Shown piece after piece: positions 8,389 through 17,762 of a stretch of 64,000 nt of DNA (the stretch's first letter is position 1; the number at the start of each line of letters is the position of its first letter). Origin of the DNA: Nocardia asteroides (GTDB lineage Bacteria > Actinomycetota > Actinomycetes > Mycobacteriales > Mycobacteriaceae). Under the pieces are notes generated by a model. The model ran no database searches. It was not told the origin of the DNA and saw only the letters and a list, made by a program, of their open reading frames with translations. Made by a program: the position numbers and the translations under genes. The DNA lies in NCBI RefSeq assembly GCF_900637185.1, contig NZ_LR134352.1, forward strand, positions 3,772,001 to 3,836,000, written 5' to 3'.

Positions 8389-8429
8389 CGAAAGCCCGGG
8401 CGGAACACGCAGTTCCGCCCGGGCTTTCG
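8389..8429. terminator. Bidirectional stem-loop terminator
   Basis: A perfect 18-bp stem (left arm 8389-8406, right arm 8412-8429) with a five-base loop lies between the convergent exporter and cysteine desulfurase genes. Because CGAAAG/CTTTCG ends the stem, each strand has a short T run in its 3' arm, so it can stop transcription from both sides. Confidence 0.9.
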
Positions 8430-8434
8430 TCGTG

Positions 8435-10129
8435 TCAACGGCGTTCGGCGATCTCGCGCAGCACCCGCACCATCCGATCGATCTCGTCGACGGTGTTGTA
8501 GAAGGCGAACGAGGGCCGCACGGTCGCCTCGACCCCGAGCCTGCGCAGGATCGGCTGCGCGCAATGATGCCCGGCCCGCACCGCGATGCCGCGTTCGTTC
8601 ATGGCGCGGCCGATGTCGACCGGATCGCACCCGTCGAGCACGAACGACAGCACGCTCGCCTTCTCCGCCGCGGTGCCGATGAGCCGGACCCCGGGGACCG
8701 CGGCCACCAGCGGGGTGGCGTAGGCGAGCAGTTCGTGCTCGTAGCGGCCGATCGCGTCCATGCCGATTCGCTGCACGTAGTCGAGCGCGGCCGCCAGGCC
8801 CACCGCGTCGGCGATGCTGCCGGTGCCCGCCTCGAACCGCCCCGGCGCCGGCTGGAACAGCGACCGTTCCAGGGTGACGTCGGCGATCATGTTCCCGCCG
8901 CCCTGCCACGGCGGCATGTCCTCGAGCACCGTGGACCTGCCGTAGACCGCGCCGATCCCGGTGGGCCCGAACACCTTGTGGCCGGAGAACACGAAGAAAT
9001 CGGCGTCGATCGCCCGCACGTCGATCGGGGTGTGCGGGGCCGACTGCGCGCCGTCGATCAGCACCGTCGCCCCGACCCGCCGTGCGGCGGCGACGAGGTC
9101 ACGCACCGGGGTGATCGTGCCGAGCGCGTTGGACACGTGCGTCACCGACACCAGTTTGGTGCGCTCGGTGAGCAACCGGGTGTACTCGTCGAGCAGCAGC
9201 TGCCCGCGATCGTCGACCGGGGCGACCTGGATCCGCGCGCCGGTCTCGGCGGCCAGCAGCTGCCACGGCACGATATTGGCGTGGTGCTCGAGGTGCGAGA
9301 TCAGGATCTCGTCACCGGCGCGCAGATTCTTGCGGCCCCAGGTCTGGGCGATCAGGTTGATGCCCTCGGTGGCCCCGCGCACGAACACGATCTCCTGCGC
9401 CGAACCCGCGCCGAGGAATCGGGCGACGGTCTCGCGCGCCTGCTCGTAGGCGTCGGTCGAGCGGGCCGCCAATTCGTGCGCGGCCCGGTGGATATTGGAG
9501 TTCTCGTGCGCGTAGAAGTGCGCCAGCCGATCGATGACCGCCCGCGGCTTCTGCGTGGTGGCCGCGTTGTCGAACCACACCAGCTGATGCCCGTTGACCC
9601 GCTCGGCCAGGATCGGGAAATCGGCGCGCACGGCGTGCACGTCGAACGGCGGGTGCGGGTCCGGTGCCACCGGCGGCGCCCCGGCGCCGTCGAGGAAATA
9701 GAACGACGGCGAGCCGGCGGCCGCGGGCGGGCCGGGCGAGCGCGGCGGGGACAGGATCTCCCGCAGCGACGGCAGCACCGCGAGGAACGGGTCGACGTGC
9801 ACGGCCTCGGGCTGCGGCGCGACGGCCGCGGGCACGTGCTCGGCGCCCCATCCCGGCACCGCGGGCGCCGCGGTGGGCCCGCCGGGAACCGCAGCGCCCG
9901 CTCCGGTGATCGGTGGTGCGGGCCGGAAGGCCGGCGGCGCCGACGTGCCCGGCGCCGGCGGGGTGAACGGCGGCGACGGTGAATCCGGTTGCAGCAGGGA
10001 CACACCCGGTGTGCCCGTGGCCCCGGTCGGCAGCGCGGCGAAGAACTCGCCGGCGAGGCGGGCGAGCGTCGCCTCGTCCGGCAGTCCGTCGCCGCCCGCC
10101 TCAGCTCCGGTAGGTCGGGGCGTAGTCAT
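8435..10129 (-). CDS. Encapsulin cargo: SufS-type cysteine desulfurase with long disordered N-terminal domain
   Basis: A 564-residue PLP enzyme. Residues 1-160 are rich in Pro, Ala and Gly with two helix-like islands (ATLARLAGEFFAALP at about 20-34; DPFLAVLPSLREIL at about 113-126). The catalytic domain starts near 163 (FDVHAVRADFPIL) and has the PLP lysine K385 in FSGHKVFGP and the persulfide cysteine C523 in RAGHHCAQP. It should convert L-cysteine to L-alanine plus enzyme-bound sulfane sulfur. The start overlaps the encapsulin gene by 29 bases. In family 2A encapsulin systems such N-extended desulfurases are the cargo and the extension directs loading, so this enzyme probably works inside the shell. 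Confidence 0.93.
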   Translation of the reverse strand: MTTPRPTGAEAGGDGLPDEATLARLAGEFFAALPTGATGTPGVSLLQPDSPSPPFTPPAPGTSAPPAFRPAPPITGAGAAVPGGPTAAPAVPGWGAEHVPAAVAPQPEAVHVDPFLAVLPSLREILSPPRSPGPPAAAGSPSFYFLDGAGAPPVAPDPHPPFDVHAVRADFPILAERVNGHQLVWFDNAATTQKPRAVIDRLAHFYAHENSNIHRAAHELAARSTDAYEQARETVARFLGAGSAQEIVFVRGATEGINLIAQTWGRKNLRAGDEILISHLEHHANIVPWQLLAAETGARIQVAPVDDRGQLLLDEYTRLLTERTKLVSVTHVSNALGTITPVRDLVAAARRVGATVLIDGAQSAPHTPIDVRAIDADFFVFSGHKVFGPTGIGAVYGRSTVLEDMPPWQGGGNMIADVTLERSLFQPAPGRFEAGTGSIADAVGLAAALDYVQRIGMDAIGRYEHELLAYATPLVAAVPGVRLIGTAAEKASVLSFVLDGCDPVDIGRAMNERGIAVRAGHHCAQPILRRLGVEATVRPSFAFYNTVDEIDRMVRVLREIAERR

Positions 10130-11033
10130 GGAACTTGTCCACCTCCGCGCCCTCCAGCAGGGCCACCGCGTCGTCGGTCAGGATCGTCAGCGAGCAGTAC
10201 AGCGACACCAGGTACGAGGCGATCGCACTGCGATCGATGCCCATGAACTTCACCGACAGGCCCGGGCCTTGCTCCCCGGCCAGCCCCGGCTGATACAGCC
10301 CCACCACGCCCTGACGGGATTCGCCGGTGCGGATCAGCAGGAACGAGGTCTTGCCGTCGATCACGGGCACCTTGTCCGACGGGATGATGGGAATGCCGCG
10401 CCACGTGATGAATTGGGAGCCGAACAGGCTGACCGTCGGCGGCGGCACCCCGCGGCGGGTGCATTCGCGGCCGAAAGCGGCCACACCCTGCGGATGGGTG
10501 AGGAAGAAGCCGGGCTCCTTCCAGACCTTGGTGATCAGATTGTCCAGGTCGTCGGGCGTGGGCGGCCCGGCCAGCGTGCTGATGCGCTGGCGCGCCACGG
10601 TATTGGCGATCAGCCCGTAGTCCGGGCTGTTGATCAGCTCGCCTTCCTGGTGCTCCTTGATCGCCTCGATGGTCAGCCGCAACTGCTGGGCGATCTGGTC
10701 GTGCGGGCTCGAGTACAGATCCGAGACCCGGGTGTGCACATCCAGAATCGTGTTGACGGCCTTGAGCCGATACTCGCGCGGTTCCTTCTCGTAGTCGATG
10801 AAGGTCTCCGGCAGCGGGGACTCGTCGAAGTTGTCGCACTGGATGTCGACGGTCTGCTCGTGGGTGACGCGGTTGCGCCGATAGATACCGGCCTCGACCG
10901 GTACCCAGTTGAGCAGATGGACCAACCACCGCGGGGTGATCGACTCCATCTGCGGGACGGTCTTGGTCGCGTTGGCCAGTGTGCGAGCGGCGACATCGCC
11001 GAGGGCAACCGGGCCCGGGACAGCTTTGGTCAT
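10101..11033 (-). CDS. Family 2A encapsulin nanocompartment shell protein (SrpI/MMP-I like)
   Basis: A 310-residue HK97-fold shell protein of the family 2A type, related to cyanobacterial SrpI and the mycobacterial 35-kDa antigen/major membrane protein I. Recognisable stretches include ATKTVPQMESITPRWLVHLL, WVPVEAGIYRRNRV, ITKVWKEPGFFLTHPQG and GIDRSAIASYLVSLYCS. Many copies should assemble into an icosahedral protein shell in the cytoplasm. The ATG at 11033 follows an AAGGTGG ribosome site. The desulfurase gene overlaps its 3' end. No serine acetyltransferase or rhodanese gene, seen beside some relatives, is adjacent here. Confidence 0.95.
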   Translation of the reverse strand: MTKAVPGPVALGDVAARTLANATKTVPQMESITPRWLVHLLNWVPVEAGIYRRNRVTHEQTVDIQCDNFDESPLPETFIDYEKEPREYRLKAVNTILDVHTRVSDLYSSPHDQIAQQLRLTIEAIKEHQEGELINSPDYGLIANTVARQRISTLAGPPTPDDLDNLITKVWKEPGFFLTHPQGVAAFGRECTRRGVPPPTVSLFGSQFITWRGIPIIPSDKVPVIDGKTSFLLIRTGESRQGVVGLYQPGLAGEQGPGLSVKFMGIDRSAIASYLVSLYCSLTILTDDAVALLEGAEVDKFHDYAPTYRS

Positions 11034-11066
11034 CGAACCACCTTGCGAATAGGCAAATCGACGGTT

Positions 11067-11098
11067 AACCGGCGGGGTCAGCCTAACCCCGCCGGGTT
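11067..11098 (-). terminator. GC-rich hairpin upstream of the encapsulin gene
   Basis: A 10-bp perfect stem (11069-11078 with 11086-11095) around a seven-base loop sits between the SRPBCC gene and the encapsulin gene, both leftward. It lacks a T run but could end SRPBCC transcription as an actinobacterial I-type terminator, or form a structured leader 33 bases from the encapsulin start. Confidence 0.55.
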
Positions 11099-11155
11099 CT
11101 CCTGTCGCGCCGGAACGCCCGTGTCCGACCGCTGTTCACACGCGGAAACGCAATC

Positions 11156-11587
11156 TCAACCGTAGAGCTTCACGAAGGCCTCGAGCGAGCGTTCGATGTC
11201 GCCGCGCAGCGCCTTGGCCACGGCCGAGCCGATCGGGCCGAACAGCGGTGCGCCGCCGAGGTCGATGTCGACGCCGACCTTCGAGCCGCTGCCCTTGGGC
11301 TCGACGTTCATGGTGAGACCGAACTTGGTGCCGCCGATCCCGGTGCCGGTGAGGGCCAGCCGGCGCGGCGGTTCGGCGGTGCGCACCGTCCAGGTGACCT
11401 TGTTGCGGAAACCCTTGACGCGGGCGATGCCGACGAGCACGGTGCCGGGGGTGAGGTCGTCGGGCAGATCGCCGCGCCAGGCCTCGTGGATGGTCAGCCA
11501 GTCGCCGAGCGCGGGCAGGTCGGACGCGTGCGCCCAGGCCTGGTCCGGCGGGACGGGGACATCGACGGAGAGCTTCAGTTTCGCCAC
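11156..11587 (-). CDS. SRPBCC (START-like) domain protein
   Basis: A 143-residue cytoplasmic protein with one SRPBCC/polyketide-cyclase-like fold: MAKLKLSVDVPVPPDQAWAHASDLPALGDWL is the typical N-terminal strand and helix pair, and the C-terminal helix is GPIGSAVAKALRGDIERSLEAF. It resembles the small mycobacterial SRPBCC proteins of the Rv0910 kind. The start is GTG at 11587. It lies upstream of the encapsulin gene on the same strand, but the hairpin between them makes co-transcription uncertain. No toxin-antitoxin partner gene is adjacent. Ligand unknown. Confidence 0.75.
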   Translation of the reverse strand: MAKLKLSVDVPVPPDQAWAHASDLPALGDWLTIHEAWRGDLPDDLTPGTVLVGIARVKGFRNKVTWTVRTAEPPRRLALTGTGIGGTKFGLTMNVEPKGSGSKVGVDIDLGGAPLFGPIGSAVAKALRGDIERSLEAFVKLYG

Positions 11588-11840: not shown

Positions 11841-13253
11841 GTGAAGTGGTCGACGACGACGAAAGATCTGATGAACTCAGGAATTGCGGTGCTGTTACTC
11901 GTCATCGGAGCGCCGCTGTTACTGCTCGCGCTGGCCGTGACGGTCTTCGCCATGCGCAACGAGCGCCAGCAGCGGTTGCGGGCCGACGTCGCCATCCGGG
12001 AACGGGTCGCGGCCGAGAACGCGCTGATCCAGCTGGCGCACACGACCGTGCCCGCGATCACAGAGGCCGTGCGCAGGCACGACATCCCCGCCGTCGGTGT
12101 CGAGGTCCCGCCGGAGCTGCGCGAGACGCGCTTCGCCGAGCTGCTGCAGACCATCGCCACCGGCCACGCCGAAGCCCTGCGTGTGGTCTCCGAGGAGACC
12201 AGGGCGATGGTCGAACGCTACGGCGAGCAGCGCCGGATCAGCGAGGTCCAGAGCGCGCAGGAGGCCGCGCGCGCCGACCTGGCCGCCACCTCACGCGCCG
12301 CGACCAGCGCCGCGGTGCGCTCCTTCGGCACCTCGGTGGTGAGCCTGGGCACCGACCTGGGCCAGGTGGTGAGCACCGCGCTGCGCGAGCACCGCGACGA
12401 CGCGATCTACGAGACGCTGACCAGGATCGACCACACCGTCCAGCAGATGATCCGGCAGGCGCAGTCCTATGTGATCGTCTCCGGCGGCCTGCCCGGCCGC
12501 CGCTGGCCGCAGCAGTCGCTGACCGACGTGGCCGGCGGCGCCACCGGCCGCGTGCGGGAATACCTGCGGGTGCGCTCGGGCCAGTCCGACCGCGTGGTGA
12601 TCAGCCGCGCGGTGGAACCGCTGGTGCACACCATGGCCACCCTGCTCGACAACGCGCTGCGCTACTCGCCGCCGTCGTCGTTCGTGGAAGTCGGCTTCCA
12701 GGAAGGCCATCACGGCGTCACCGTCATCATCGACGACGCGGGCATGCGGATGAGCCCCGAACAGCTCGAGGACGCGCGCCAGGTGCTCAGTGGCGAACGT
12801 TCCGTCGACATCCACGATCTCGGTCCGGCGCCCAAGGTCGGTTTCCCTGGTATCGCGGCACTGGCACGCCGGTACGGCTTCTCCGTGCACGTCGACGGTC
12901 CCAACATCTTCGGCGGCATGCGGGCGATGGTCTACGTGCCCTCGGCGCTGCTGGTCAGCGGTGCCGCGCCGCGACTGCCCGAACCCGAACTCACCGCCCA
13001 GGCCCATGTTCCGGTTCCGGTCCTGGTCGAGGCGGAATCGCGGGGGGCCGACGTGCACGAGATCACCAGTGGGGGATTGCCCAAGCGTCGCCGCAGGCCG
13101 GTGGCGCCGGACCCGGCGGAGGTGTCCGCCGAATCGGGGCAGGCCCGCCCCGACCTCGCCGCTGCCTGGCACAGCGGTTCCCGCAGCGGTCGCGCCGCTG
13201 CGGCCGAGCGAACCACGGAAGGAACAGCCGATGAGCACACCGGTAGCCGATAG
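11841..13253 (+). CDS. cvnA: Conservon sensor-like histidine kinase ATPase (CvnA)
   Basis: A 470-residue membrane sensor. One N-terminal helix (about residues 13-38, GIAVLLLVIGAPLLLLALAV) is followed by a long helical region and a GHKL ATPase domain with N-box LLDNALRYSPP and G1-like VIIDDAGMRMS. No convincing phospho-acceptor histidine is visible, as is usual in conservon sensors. The C-terminal 130 residues are Pro/Ala-rich. GTG at 11841 gives the full ORF; ATG at 11871, just before the helix, is an alternative. The gene overlaps cvnB by 23 bases and heads a five-gene set. In Streptomyces, conservon proteins form a membrane GTPase-switch complex linked to development and secondary metabolism. 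Confidence 0.88.
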   Translation: MKWSTTTKDLMNSGIAVLLLVIGAPLLLLALAVTVFAMRNERQQRLRADVAIRERVAAENALIQLAHTTVPAITEAVRRHDIPAVGVEVPPELRETRFAELLQTIATGHAEALRVVSEETRAMVERYGEQRRISEVQSAQEAARADLAATSRAATSAAVRSFGTSVVSLGTDLGQVVSTALREHRDDAIYETLTRIDHTVQQMIRQAQSYVIVSGGLPGRRWPQQSLTDVAGGATGRVREYLRVRSGQSDRVVISRAVEPLVHTMATLLDNALRYSPPSSFVEVGFQEGHHGVTVIIDDAGMRMSPEQLEDARQVLSGERSVDIHDLGPAPKVGFPGIAALARRYGFSVHVDGPNIFGGMRAMVYVPSALLVSGAAPRLPEPELTAQAHVPVPVLVEAESRGADVHEITSGGLPKRRRRPVAPDPAEVSAESGQARPDLAAAWHSGSRSGRAAAAERTTEGTADEHTGSR

Positions 13254-13641
13254 CACGAACCGCCTGGCATGGCTGCTCGAGGATCTGGAGATCCCCGGCG
13301 TCCGCTTCGCGGTGCTGCTGTCCGATGACGGACTGCGGATCGCGCACTCCCGTGGCGTGGCCAAGGACGACGCCGAGCGGTTCGCCGCCGCCGCGTCGGG
13401 CCTGCGCTCGCTCGGCAAGGCGCTCGGCGAGTTCTGCGGTGGCTCGTCGAACGCAGTGCGCCAGAACATGACCGAGTACGACGAGGGCATGATCATGATC
13501 ACCGCCGCCGGTGTCGGCGCGCTGCTGGGCGTCGCCACCACCGTCGACGTCGACGTGGCGCTGGTGGCGCACCGGATGAACGAGCTGGCCTCCCGGGTCG
13601 GCCACGAGATCGGCAGCGCACCCCGCCACGGTGGCAGGTGA
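13231..13641 (+). CDS. cvnB: Roadblock/LC7 domain protein (CvnB)
   Basis: A 136-residue roadblock/LC7 protein, starting STNRLAWLLEDLEIPGVRFAV and containing the typical SDDGLRIAHS and VDVDVALVAHRMNELASRVG elements. ATG at 13231 follows GGAAGGA. Roadblock proteins of this kind act as GTPase-activating or regulatory partners of small Ras-like GTPases; here the partner should be CvnD two genes downstream. The stop overlaps the start of the DUF742 gene. Confidence 0.92.
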   Translation: MSTPVADSTNRLAWLLEDLEIPGVRFAVLLSDDGLRIAHSRGVAKDDAERFAAAASGLRSLGKALGEFCGGSSNAVRQNMTEYDEGMIMITAAGVGALLGVATTVDVDVALVAHRMNELASRVGHEIGSAPRHGGR

Positions 13642-13991
13642 TGAGCCGGGGCAGGCGCGACCCCGACCTGGTCAGGTCGTATGTGCGCACCGGCGGCCGG
13701 GTCAGGGCCGCGCATGAACTGGACCTGGTGACCCTGGTCCGCGCCGTCGCCGACGCGCGCCCCGACCACCGCCCCGACGAGCGCAGACTGCTCGCGCTCA
13801 CCAGCCGCCGCGGCGCGCTCTCGGTCGCCGAGCTGTCGGCGTATCTGGATCTGCCCGCGTCCGTCGTGAAGATCATCGTGTCCGATCTGCTCGACAGCGG
13901 CCATCTGCAGTGCCCCACCCCGGCTCAGGTGAAGCCGGAACTCGCGTTGATCAAGGAGGTGCTGCATGGTCTCCGTGCCATCGCGGGTTGA
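13641..13991 (+). CDS. cvnC: DUF742 protein (CvnC)
   Basis: A 116-residue DUF742 protein with the family opening RDPDLVRSYVRTGGR and a winged-helix-like second half (LSVAELSAYLDLPASVVKIIVSDLLDSGHLQ). ATG at 13641 overlaps the cvnB stop (TGATG), and GTG at 13638 is equally possible. The function is not known beyond membership of the conservon complex. It overlaps the GTPase gene by 26 bases. Confidence 0.92.
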   Translation: MSRGRRDPDLVRSYVRTGGRVRAAHELDLVTLVRAVADARPDHRPDERRLLALTSRRGALSVAELSAYLDLPASVVKIIVSDLLDSGHLQCPTPAQVKPELALIKEVLHGLRAIAG

Positions 13992-14568
13992 GATCGATTA
14001 TGTCCCCGAGACCGTGACGCGGTCGGTGAAGATCCTGGTCGCAGGCAATTTCGGCGTCGGCAAGACGACGTTCGTGTGCGGAGTGTCCGAGATCAGGCCG
14101 CTGCGCACCGAGGAGACCATCACCGAGGCCAGTATCGGCGTCGACGACATGGCCGGACTCGGCAGCAAGGTGCAGACCACCGTCGCCCTGGACTTCGGCC
14201 GCATCACCCTGAATCCGCAGCTGGCGCTGTACCTGTTCGGCACGCCGGGCCAGGAACGCTTCGCCCCGCTGTGGGAGGAACTGGCCCGCGGCGCGCTGGG
14301 CGCGCTCGTGCTCGTCGACACCCGGCGCATCGAGAAGGCCGACGACGTGCTCTCGGCGCTGGAACAGCGCGGCGTGCCGTACGCGGTGGCGGTCAACGAG
14401 TTCGAGGGCTTCCGCCGGTACCCGCTCGAGGAAGTCCGCGAGGCGCTGGACCTGTCGCCGGAGACCCCGGTGGTCGCGGTGGACGCGCGCCGCCGCGATC
14501 ACGGCCTGCGCGCGCTGATCACCTTGGCGGAGTACCTGTTCCGCAGGCAGGAAGCGACAGCGTCATGA
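13966..14568 (+). CDS. cvnD: Conservon small GTPase (CvnD)
   Basis: A 200-residue Ras/Rab-like bacterial GTPase. Motifs: P-loop GNFGVGKTT (residues 27-35), switch II FGTPGQERF near residue 84, and a weakened G4 motif, AVNEFEG, where NKxD is expected. It should cycle between GDP and GTP states under control of the roadblock protein and the sensor. The start lies inside cvnC and the stop overlaps the P450 start (ATGA), giving tight coupling across the operon. Confidence 0.93.
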   Translation: MVSVPSRVEIDYVPETVTRSVKILVAGNFGVGKTTFVCGVSEIRPLRTEETITEASIGVDDMAGLGSKVQTTVALDFGRITLNPQLALYLFGTPGQERFAPLWEELARGALGALVLVDTRRIEKADDVLSALEQRGVPYAVAVNEFEGFRRYPLEEVREALDLSPETPVVAVDARRRDHGLRALITLAEYLFRRQEATAS

Positions 14569-15770
14569 CGGTGGATCTCTCGGCCGGTGAACGGGTGCCG
14601 ATGTACGCGCCCGAGTTCGCCGCCGACCCGCAGGCGGCCTACCGCGAGATGCGGCGCCGGTTCGGGTCGGTGGTGCCGGTCGAGTTGTCGCCGGGGATCC
14701 GGGCGACGCTGGTCATCGGCTATCACACCGCGGTCCGGATCCTCAACGATCCCGAGCACTTCCCGGCCGATCCGCGGCAGTGGCAGCGCAATATCCCGCA
14801 GGACTGCCCGGTGCTGCCGATGCTGCAGTTCCGGCCCGCCGCGCTGCGCACCACCGGCGCCGAGCACGTCCGGTACCGGCAGGCCAATGTCGCCGGGATC
14901 GCCGGGGTGGACCTGTACGCGATGCACGCCACCGTCGAGCAGTTCGCCATCCCGCTGATCAACAGCTTCTGCGCGAACGGCTCGGCGGACCTGTTGAGCC
15001 AGTACGCGTTTCCGCTGGTGTTCCAGGCGCTGAACTCGATGCTGGGCTGCACCCCGGAGATCGGGCAGCAGGTGGCCACCGGGATGGCGCAGATCTTCGA
15101 GGGTGACGACGCCGAGGCGGGCAACAACCTGCTGGCGTCGGCGCTGTCGGATCTGGTCGAGCTGCGTCAGCGCGAGCCCGGCGACGACGTCGCCACCCGG
15201 CTGCTGCACCACCCGGCCGCACTCACCGACGAGGAGATGGTGCACCAGCTGCTGGTGCTCTACGGCGCGGGCATCGAACCGATGCTCAACCTGGTGGTGA
15301 ACACGCTGCGGCTGATGCTCACCGACGACCGTTTCGCGGGAAATGTGCTGGGCGGCAGCCTGTCCACCCGTGACGCGCTCGACGAGGTGCTGTTCACCGA
15401 TCCGCCGCTGGCCAACTTCTGCATGACCTATCCGCGCCAGCCGATCCTGGTCGACGAGATGTGGCTGCCCGCGAACGAGCCGGTCGTGATCAGCATGTCG
15501 GCCTGCAACAACGATCCCGCGATCGCCGGTCGCGATGTGGTGGACAATCGCGCGCACCTGGCCTGGAGCGCGGGTCCGCACGGGTGCCCGGCCAAGTCGG
15601 TGGCGTATCTGATCGTGCAGGACGCGATCGATCAGCTGCTCGACGCGCTGCCGGAGCTGTCGCTGGCCGTGCCGGAGCAGGAACTGGTGTGGCGGCCGGG
15701 GCCGTTCCATCGGTCGCTGGCCGCGCTGCCGGTCGAATTCCCGAAGACGCCGCCGCTGCCGATGCCCTGA
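14565..15770 (+). CDS. cvnE: Conservon cytochrome P450 (CvnE), degenerate motifs
   Basis: A 401-residue P450-fold protein ending the conservon. The heme loop is AWSAGPHGCPAKS with the thiolate Cys341 kept, but the usual Phe is Trp and the Gly after Cys is Ala two residues later. The K-helix ExxR motif reads DEVLF (E274, F277), so the salt-bridge arginine is missing, and the I-helix AG-x-x-T reads AGIEP, lacking the acid-alcohol pair. It may bind heme but is unlikely to be a normal monooxygenase; a sensory or structural role is inferred. Its convergent TetR neighbour starts a new unit. Confidence 0.88.
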   Translation: MTVDLSAGERVPMYAPEFAADPQAAYREMRRRFGSVVPVELSPGIRATLVIGYHTAVRILNDPEHFPADPRQWQRNIPQDCPVLPMLQFRPAALRTTGAEHVRYRQANVAGIAGVDLYAMHATVEQFAIPLINSFCANGSADLLSQYAFPLVFQALNSMLGCTPEIGQQVATGMAQIFEGDDAEAGNNLLASALSDLVELRQREPGDDVATRLLHHPAALTDEEMVHQLLVLYGAGIEPMLNLVVNTLRLMLTDDRFAGNVLGGSLSTRDALDEVLFTDPPLANFCMTYPRQPILVDEMWLPANEPVVISMSACNNDPAIAGRDVVDNRAHLAWSAGPHGCPAKSVAYLIVQDAIDQLLDALPELSLAVPEQELVWRPGPFHRSLAALPVEFPKTPPLPMP

Positions 15771-16523: not shown

Positions 16524-17762
16524 ATGACCACGGATCTCGCGGCGATCGATCTCTTCGACCCGGGGGTACTCGACGACCCCTACCCCCTGTACCGCCGCCT
16601 GCGCGAGGACGCTCCGGTGTACCGCGTGCCGGGCACCGACTTCTTCCTCGTCGCCTCCTGGGCCGGGGTCGCCGAGGCGACCGCGCGCACCGCCGAGTTC
16701 TCCTCGCATCTGACCGGGGTGCTCGTCGCCCAGCCCGGCGCGCGACCGGTCACCTTCGACCTCGACCCGACCGGCGCGGGCGTGCACGTCCTCGCCACGG
16801 CCGACGGCGCGGTGCACGCCGCGCACCGCGGCATCGTCGGTCCCGCCCTGGCCAAACGGGTCAGGACACTGGGACCGATGGTCACCGCACTCACCGAACA
16901 GCTCTGGTCCGAGGAACTCGACGGCGACCGGATCGACTGGGCGAGCGGAATGGCCGACCGGCTGCCGCTCGCCTTGATCGCCGAACTCGTCGGGCTGCCG
17001 AGCACCGACGTGCCCCGACTGCTGACATGGGCCTACGACTCCACCGAGATGCTGGGCGGGGTCGTGGCCGAGGGCCGGATGACCGAGCTGGTCACCTCCG
17101 CGGCCGAGCTGGCCCACTACGCCTACATCGCCCTCGCGGCCGCGAAAGAACGTGGCGCCGGGCCGGATTCACCCGAGGCGCTGATCGACGTCCTCGCCGC
17201 GGCCCTGGCGGCGGGCCGGATCGACGAGCAGCAGGCCGTCCTGATCGTGGTGCAGCTGATCGGGGCGGGTGGCGAGTCGACGGCGGGCCTGATCGCCGCG
17301 TCCGCCCGGCTGCTGGCCGCCGACCTCGAGCTGCAGGCGCGGCTGCGGGAGCGTCCCGAGCTGGTGCCCGCGTTCCTCGACGAAGCGCTGCGCCTCGAAT
17401 CGCCGTTCCGCGGCCACCATCGCCACGTCCTCACCGACACCCGGCTCGGTGCGGTCGACCTGCCCGCGGGCAGCCATCTGCTGCTGCTGTGGGGCGCGGC
17501 CAACCGCGACCCCGCGATGTTCGACGACCCGGACACCGTGAACCTCACGCGCCGCCGGGGCCGCGGCCACGCCGCCTTCGGCGCGGGCGCGCACTTCTGC
17601 ATCGGCTCCGCCCTGGCCCGGCTCGAGGCGACCACGGCCCTCACCCTGCTGCTCGACCGCACCGAGCGGTTCACCCTGATCGACGACGCGCCGCCGCGCT
17701 GGGTGCCGAGCCTGTTGGTCCGCCGCCACGCGAGCCTGCCGCTGCACGTCGTTCCGCGCTGA
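16524..17762 (+). CDS. Cytochrome P450
   Basis: A 412-residue soluble bacterial P450 with all catalytic motifs: I-helix GAGGEST (residues 248-253, a Glu-Ser-Thr variant of AGxxT), K-helix EALR (E287 to R290) and heme loop FGAGAHFCIG with Cys359. ATG at 16524 follows GGAAAGGCGG. It should be a monooxygenase using electrons from a ferredoxin; no ferredoxin or reductase gene is adjacent. It stands divergent from a TetR regulator. Substrate unknown; the contrast with the degenerate P450 upstream is clear. Confidence 0.93.
   Translation: MTTDLAAIDLFDPGVLDDPYPLYRRLREDAPVYRVPGTDFFLVASWAGVAEATARTAEFSSHLTGVLVAQPGARPVTFDLDPTGAGVHVLATADGAVHAAHRGIVGPALAKRVRTLGPMVTALTEQLWSEELDGDRIDWASGMADRLPLALIAELVGLPSTDVPRLLTWAYDSTEMLGGVVAEGRMTELVTSAAELAHYAYIALAAAKERGAGPDSPEALIDVLAAALAAGRIDEQQAVLIVVQLIGAGGESTAGLIAASARLLAADLELQARLRERPELVPAFLDEALRLESPFRGHHRHVLTDTRLGAVDLPAGSHLLLLWGAANRDPAMFDDPDTVNLTRRRGRGHAAFGAGAHFCIGSALARLEATTALTLLLDRTERFTLIDDAPPRWVPSLLVRRHASLPLHVVPR

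Follow-up and report, generated by a model that had tools for sequence, protein, structure and literature searches.

A 64,000-nucleotide stretch of the Nocardia asteroides genome (contig NZ_LR134352.1, positions 3,772,001 to 3,836,000; called the window here) carries a gene for a Family 2A encapsulin shell followed by a gene for its cysteine desulfurase cargo. The genome that holds this pair is a single contig of 6.98 Mb. The pair is an ordinary, intact member of an already described system, and it probably encodes an encapsulin nanocompartment in which the sulfur of cysteine is retained. As judged from the loci compared here, the Nocardia unit appears to be a cassette of two genes that has an upstream region of its own, and neither a serine acetyltransferase (CysE) gene nor a rhodanese gene was found linked to it.

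The original prediction stated that a 2A shell gene lies directly before, and overlaps, a gene for a SufS-type desulfurase. Both open reading frames are found at those positions on the minus strand, in the order shell, then cargo, and the overlap and the family scores agree with that description. In the profile search that the prediction had proposed, the shell scores 522.6 bits against the curated Family 2A model NF041162 (cut-off 380). The desulfurase scores 844.4 bits against the curated Family 2A cargo model NF041166 (cut-off 800) and 555.4 bits against the SufS model TIGR01979 (cut-off 475.1). In a comparison set of 148 genomes of the genus, a 2A shell over the cut-off is found in 26, a cargo over the cut-off is found in the same 26, and the two genes are adjacent in all of these. 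Any match to the shell model is found in 108 of the 148 genomes; the sub-cut-off matches listed lie mostly in the later part of the model and in longer frames and appear 2B-like, the 2B model having been run on the copy of the window's genome only. The gene pair has the following features:

10101 to 11033, minus strand: Family 2A encapsulin shell gene, 310 amino acids, assigned by family models and matches to solved shells.
8435 to 10129, minus strand: cargo cysteine desulfurase gene, 564 amino acids, assigned by family models.
10101 to 10129, minus strand: 29-bp overlap of the shell gene end and the cargo gene start, with the corresponding ATG in 26 of 26 genus cassettes (26 bp in one).
10139 to 10146, minus strand: GGAGGTGG, a putative ribosome-binding site of the cargo gene, inside the shell gene.

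Read from the ATG that overlaps the 3' end of the shell gene, the cargo frame is free of stop codons in 26 of 26 genus cassettes, which is far beyond chance, and GAGGT is kept just upstream of this ATG in all of them. This pattern is compatible with translational coupling of the cargo.

PF19307 (334.2 bits) is the sole Pfam domain of the shell at E ≤ 0.001, and the cNMP-binding domain that separates 2A from 2B is not found in the 310-residue protein by this Pfam search. The 2B model is narrowly passed (408.3 bits, cut-off 400), with the first 207 positions of that model outside the best stretch. Its alignments to five solved 2A shell sequences run over nearly the full length (E 4e-154 to 6e-141); among the five are those of Acinetobacter baumannii (PDB 8t6r), Mycobacterium smegmatis (8wol) and SrpI (6x8m). 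The shell has at least 8000 relatives at E ≤ 1e-30; among the matches listed, the nearest, annotated as a Family 2A shell of Nocardia sp., shares 97% identity with it. Excerpts of PMC8049743 on SrpI name G194 and P196 at the pore and F262 and Y273 near the cargo density. These residues align with G195, P197, F263 and Y274 of the Nocardia shell, and all are kept. SrpI R304, described there as a charged and poorly conserved pore residue, is aligned with an alanine.

The shell is predicted to adopt the HK97 fold, mainly via its homology to these solved shells. AlphaFold2 models reached a mean predicted local distance difference test score (pLDDT) of 38.4 with 16 sequences and 60.1 with 69. Foldseek with the latter model places 2A shells at the top (8t6r, E 4e-31) and 2B shells next, with weaker matches to T5 and gene-transfer-agent capsids (E 2e-3 and 4e-3). 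Superposition on 2A shells gives a template modeling score of about 0.5 and a root-mean-square deviation of 14–18 Å, and so it is sequence homology that carries the fold assignment. Neither of the two outcomes named beforehand as fatal to the prediction, no encapsulin-family hit or a predicted structure without an HK97 fold, occurred: the hits are strong, and the moderate-confidence model finds 2A shells first.

The cargo was also predicted to have an intact lysine for pyridoxal phosphate (PLP) and an intact persulfide cysteine, and K385 and C523 bear this out. The features of the cargo gene are:

8975 to 8977, minus strand: codon of lysine 385 (SGHK), seen in the sequence, which we take to be the PLP-binding residue as in class V aminotransferases.
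8561 to 8563, minus strand: codon of cysteine 523 (RAGHHC), seen in the sequence, presumably the persulfide residue as in SufS.
9650 to 10129, minus strand: N-terminal domain, residues 1–160, rich in proline, alanine and glycine by composition, with a putative targeting role by family (PMC8049743, excerpts).
10040 to 10066, minus strand: candidate targeting motif 1, LARLAGEFF, residues 22–30, resembling the published LARLANEFFS.
9686 to 9703, minus strand: candidate targeting motif 2, FYFLDG, residues 143–148, resembling the published AASPYYFLDG.

The best stretch against NF041166 covers positions 216–622 of the 623 in the model, leaving the variable N-terminus outside. The length of this N-terminus ranges from 55 to 330 residues across the 26 genus cassettes. 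According to the excerpts of PMC8049743, LARLANEFFS and AASPYYFLDG are present in most such cargos. Inspection by eye finds motif 2 (YFL) in 26 of 26 genus cassettes. Motif 1, in some cases as a close variant, is seen in 25 of the 26 aligned rows; the remaining row (L064) ends before the motif, which a pattern search finds there. The cargo of G036 retains both motifs within its 55-residue N-terminal domain. The Nocardia cargo is thus predicted, with disorder judged from composition, to begin with a disordered-type domain that carries both targeting motifs. A second SufS-family gene lies elsewhere in the same genome, and its neighbors resemble sufC and sufU by eye. Because of this separate gene beside sufC/sufU-like genes, the cassette desulfurase is probably not the iron–sulfur housekeeping enzyme. 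An anti-phage reading was rejected, the SspA and DndA matches of the cargo (178.3 and 170.3 bits) lying far under its SufS match.

By its features, the locus appears to belong among the actinobacterial 2A desulfurase systems. Andreas and Giessen 2021 (PMC8346489, excerpts) list 193 actinobacterial 2A desulfurase operons, which are of the same kind as the Nocardia locus. The excerpts of that paper name Nocardia only for peroxidase and Flp encapsulins and hold no description of the behavior of the cassette at the genus level. SrpI-CyD of Synechococcus elongatus PCC 7942 (PDB 6x8m and 6x8t; PMC8049743, excerpts) has a shell 68.1% identical to that of Nocardia and shares the cargo type, the two targeting motif types and the shell-then-cargo order. 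However, the SrpI-CyD pair is flanked by cysK, serine acetyltransferase and rhodanese genes, and no such neighbors were found in Nocardia. Furthermore, it lies on a plasmid with a gap of 234 bp between shell and cargo, whereas the Nocardia pair overlaps and lies on the 6.98-Mb contig. The Mmp1 encapsulin of M. smegmatis (PDB 8wol and 8won; 9ksl is a like sequence) is an actinobacterial 2A shell matched nearly over its full length, but from another genus. The cargo-loaded 2A encapsulin of A. baumannii (8t6r) is the best PDB match in both sequence and fold. The shell and cargo genes of one record labelled as an Acinetobacter phage overlap by 26 bp, akin to the Nocardia overlap; unlike in Nocardia, genes for a serine acetyltransferase and a rhodanese-type GlpE (glpE) stand before the shell.

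Serine acetyltransferase and rhodanese are the most enriched accessories of Family 2A (PMC8346489, excerpts). The 26 genus loci and 80 named loci (30 actinobacterial and 50 proteobacterial, the top 80 among at least 578) were searched by tblastn for both genes, with queries taken from S. elongatus and the Acinetobacter-type record. The 30 actinobacterial loci include 14 Nocardia contigs that are also counted in the 26, leaving 16 further ones. With these queries, no linked CysE or rhodanese is found at any of the 26 genus loci or the 16 further actinobacterial loci; a cysK-like match is present at one genus locus. Of the proteobacterial loci, 41 have both partners (one of them on a contig that stops before the cargo), 8 have rhodanese only and 1 has CysE only. 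The rhodanese control is weak in that two of its queries (L273 and L274), picked by length, are probably in the wrong frame; a third, a Nocardia query, gives one weak rhodanese hit (35% over 85 residues) in the Nocardia locus L065. The actinobacterial absence of CysE is weakly controlled as well, the Acinetobacter-type query having no match in the window's own genome.

Around the pair in N. asteroides, no serine acetyltransferase or rhodanese is seen among the 22 other genes called at 303–27313. The window has no rhodanese match, and 13 rhodanese-matched stretches lie elsewhere in the genome. No gene of this genome passes the CysE family cut-off (best 31.1 bits against 210.65), which 8 of 14 control genomes do pass. 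This family search supports the absence of CysE for the window's genome only. It yields no candidate enzyme for the O-acetylserine step of this Nocardia. Linked CysE and rhodanese genes are not required for 2A membership, and this locus has neither. The open-licence literature, which misses most subscription papers, yielded no statement in the excerpts obtained that actinobacterial systems lack both accessories.

The original prediction also called the neighborhood of the pair notable, and this is not supported. The flanks of the window's cassette and of the 25 others, about 8 kb in either direction, were compared with gene calls from a simple custom scorer. The 26 pairs fall into 12 neighborhoods when a single shared flanking family is taken as kinship and into 15 when two or three are needed. 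With at least two shared families, one neighborhood holds ten loci, and that of the window is shared only with G125. Apart from shell and cargo, no gene family occurs at all 26 loci. Because the 26 pairs are spread over 12–15 neighborhoods, the neighborhood is not part of the system; it was rejected as a component also in view of nine relatives that have the same neighborhood minus the pair. Mean third-position differences are 34% for the shell and 36% for the last 400 codons of the cargo, over 253 pairs among 23 genomes (G022, G066 and G074, with rpoB matches in pieces, are excluded).

Several side observations touch this distribution. Seven genomes of the ten-locus neighborhood (G041, G008, G048, G059, G017, G080 and G121) have an extra rpoB match about 4.5–7 kb from the cargo match. 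G088 (L069, 7852–9059) shows similarity to a cargo-type desulfurase in two pieces in different frames and has no 2A shell over the cut-off. In G105 (L067, 6179–9042), a sub-cut-off shell gene of 2B-like length is directly followed by a desulfurase gene, whose product has almost no N-terminal extension by eye. Hits to the 2A shell are found in two records named Acinetobacter phage MD-2021a (328530 and 378590 bases). In one of them, L271 (CAKLQH020000001.1), the genes around the 2A operon are ordinary for a bacterium, and the record seems to be a bacterial contig. A phage origin of the cassette was rejected, as the window copy has no PHROG match and the opened record from the phage collection appears bacterial.

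The nine relatives allow the extent of the cassette to be drawn by comparison with an empty site:

8430 to 11155, minus strand: cassette extent against the empty site of relatives, about 2.7 kb.
8389 to 8429, either strand: GC-rich hairpin, from its fold a probable two-way terminator, between the convergent major facilitator superfamily (MFS) and cargo genes.

The gene at 11156–11587, beyond the cassette, is matched in 108 of the 148 genomes; its NCBIfam name is Rv0910-family type II toxin, with a score of 186.5 bits against a cut-off of 100. From the 29 best loci in other genomes, 13 were extended and 11 analyzed, the other two being at a contig end (G146) or without other window genes nearby (G070). 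All 13 of these genomes lack a 2A shell over the cut-off. In nine of them (G032, G046, G058, G061, G065, G113, G114, G127 and G128), the MFS gene and the 11156–11587 gene converge directly, 55–64 bp apart (149 bp in G065), and a GC-rich hairpin is seen by eye between them. No MFS gene was found at the site in G038 and G136. The window and G125 have a like hairpin beside the MFS gene, and the stop of the cargo gene follows a few bases on. The window hairpin has a folding energy of -46.7 kcal/mol (z -8.2) and is not flagged by a terminator scan that requires a T run.

The trees that bear on gain or loss of the cassette at this site point in different directions. In the cassette tree, the window and G125 are joined with a support of 100 (Shimodaira–Hasegawa-like approximate likelihood ratio test). 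In the rpoB tree, G125 and then the window lie outside 12 cassette-less kin (100/98), a topology that fits ancestral presence and one loss. The tree of the short 11156–11587 gene places the window among cassette-less kin (96), with G125 on a long branch, and would fit a gain or several losses. The MFS gene tree is unresolved. Across the genus, quick-method trees of the cassette and of rpoB match in the placement of several close kin but conflict, at starred support, over G024 and over G057/G063. With a single marker gene behind it, the conflict is no more than a hint that the cassette has sometimes been transferred within the genus; G063 and G125 were flagged for odd base composition in the trees. 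Frequent transfer of Family 2 operons has already been proposed (PMC8346489, excerpts).

The region upstream of the shell gene holds three candidate signals:

11052 to 11069, minus strand: 18-base element GTTAACCGTCGATTTGCC, found with at most 3 mismatches in 23 of 26 cassettes.
11080 to 11085, minus strand: TAGGCT, a candidate -10 hexamer.
11038 to 11044, minus strand: AAGGTGG, a putative ribosome-binding site of the shell gene.

In those 23 cassettes, the pattern GGTWRCSGTNGATTTGCC lies no more than 60 bases from the start of the shell gene, with at most 3 mismatches, and it occurs in none of 130 pieces lying further upstream. It was derived from the same loci in which the matches were counted. 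The exceptions are L062 (4 mismatches), L064 and L066, the latter two having the most divergent shells. Since the element is kept across unrelated neighborhoods despite the mean third-position difference of 34% in the shell, this suggests that it is functional. TANNNT stands shortly before it in 22 of the 23 element-bearing cassettes, and a sigma-70 consensus scan found no promoter. Outside the genus, the 100 bases upstream of the shell in the 16 non-Nocardia actinobacterial loci hold no match with at most 3 mismatches (best 6). Genome-wide, the cassette's own site is the best match (1 mismatch), followed by four sites with 2 mismatches. When up to 3 mismatches are allowed, the pattern gives 112 matches and a reversed control pattern gives 80, and no regulon is visible. 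Two further readings of the leader were rejected. A leaderless upstream reading frame over the element, inspected by eye in a few loci, is not kept and has no ATG in the window. The consensus folding energy of -2.4, against -0.7 (standard deviation 1.0) for shuffled columns, is too weak a signal for a conserved RNA structure. A search for known RNA families gave two matches at E ≤ 1, both far below their gathering scores.

Taken with what is described for other species, these features are consistent with the following mechanism. Transcription of both genes would start at a promoter immediately before the shell gene, and the cargo would be translated by coupling via the 29-bp overlap. Sixty shell subunits, as known for SrpI, would form a shell of about 25 nm, into which the desulfurase would be loaded. 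Cysteine would enter through the shell pores, and the PLP enzyme would convert it to alanine and an enzyme persulfide. The sulfur may then be held inside as polysulfide or elemental sulfur, serving as a reserve or sink, a storage step that we infer by analogy with other species. Work by Benisch in 2024 is said to have shown storage of elemental sulfur. In S. elongatus, the shell is a 24.5-nm T=1 particle, the N-terminal domain is needed and sufficient for cargo loading, desulfurase turnover is about sevenfold higher inside the shell, and the system rises under sulfate starvation (PMC8049743, excerpts). Sulfur storage by encapsulins is stated in one phrase each in the excerpts of PMC12407261, which cites the Benisch work, and PMC12140327. 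The sulfur-handling compartment of the original prediction is the right expectation from the family, with the handling of sulfur itself resting on analogy. Weighing against this mechanism, knock-outs in S. elongatus have no growth defect (PMC8049743, excerpts), the 13 rhodanese-matched stretches elsewhere in the genome are possible acceptors, and the predicted shell model is of moderate quality.

The compartment might instead be a delivery device rather than a store, its shell restricting which rhodanese or SufU-like acceptor, encoded elsewhere, takes the persulfide and so steering sulfur to chosen products. A delivery role has been proposed for family members with linked rhodaneses (PMC8346489, excerpts), and the genome holds a sufU-like gene (by eye) besides the rhodanese-matched stretches. 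However, with the queries used, a linked rhodanese is found at 49 of the 50 proteobacterial loci and at none of the 26 genus and 16 further actinobacterial ones. This negative is weakly controlled, and a Nocardia query gave the weak hit in one Nocardia locus; we consider delivery unlikely here. The enzyme might also act as a cysteine sink that lowers free cysteine, or makes sulfide or persulfide for redox defense, with the retained sulfur as a by-product. That the searches found no linked serine acetyltransferase to make cysteine would suit such a role, and the excerpts of PMC8049743 discuss other roles of sequestration, such as limiting the loss of cytosolic cysteine, leaving the purpose open. 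But the rise under sulfate starvation in S. elongatus suits a reserve better, and a sink is quite improbable. That the cassette is a passenger without selected function in Nocardia, being lost, might be read from its presence in only 26 of 148 genomes, the nine relatives without it at this site and the cargo-like stretch of G088 in two frames. Against this, neither frame is interrupted in any of the 26 cassettes, and the catalytic residues in the window, as well as the types of overlap and motif in all 26, are kept despite the third-position differences, making a passenger very hard to believe.

Other observations concern the rest of the genome and the window. The genome holds three encapsulin types, Family 1, 2A and 2B. 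The Family 1 encapsulin (L269; G000:C1, 6840303–6841055) matches PF04454 with 331.6 bits, and the gene before it has what we take to be the look of a dye-decolorizing peroxidase with a C-terminal targeting peptide. The Family 2B shell (L068, 5818–9602; 722.4 bits) is followed by genes for a terpene synthase and a methyltransferase, presumably the arrangement of 2-methylisoborneol systems. In the window, 11841–15770 encodes a HATPase_c protein (hit just below the cut-off), a Roadblock protein, a DUF742 protein, a small GTPase-like protein and a P450-looking protein without a Pfam hit, a set that we take to be conservon-like. A P450 with a Pfam hit lies at 16524–17762.

Beyond the known system, the genus comparison adds the behavior of the cassette, a site at which it is present or absent, a common upstream element and the finding of no linked partners. 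One tentative reading of these is that 2A systems in Nocardia, and perhaps in actinobacteria, may be stripped-down, self-sufficient sulfur-storage cassettes that move as a unit between genomic sites with their own promoter- or operator-like element, so far seen only in Nocardia, and without the partners that make cysteine and take up sulfur in proteobacterial and cyanobacterial systems. If this is true, general cell proteins, or else reduction, would have to release the stored sulfur for use. The comparison makes 2A sulfur storage and release without dedicated partner genes testable, and the short element kept in 23 of 26 cassettes does the same for the switch-on of the cassette. A natural comparison with and without the cassette is offered by relatives in which it is present or absent at a single site.

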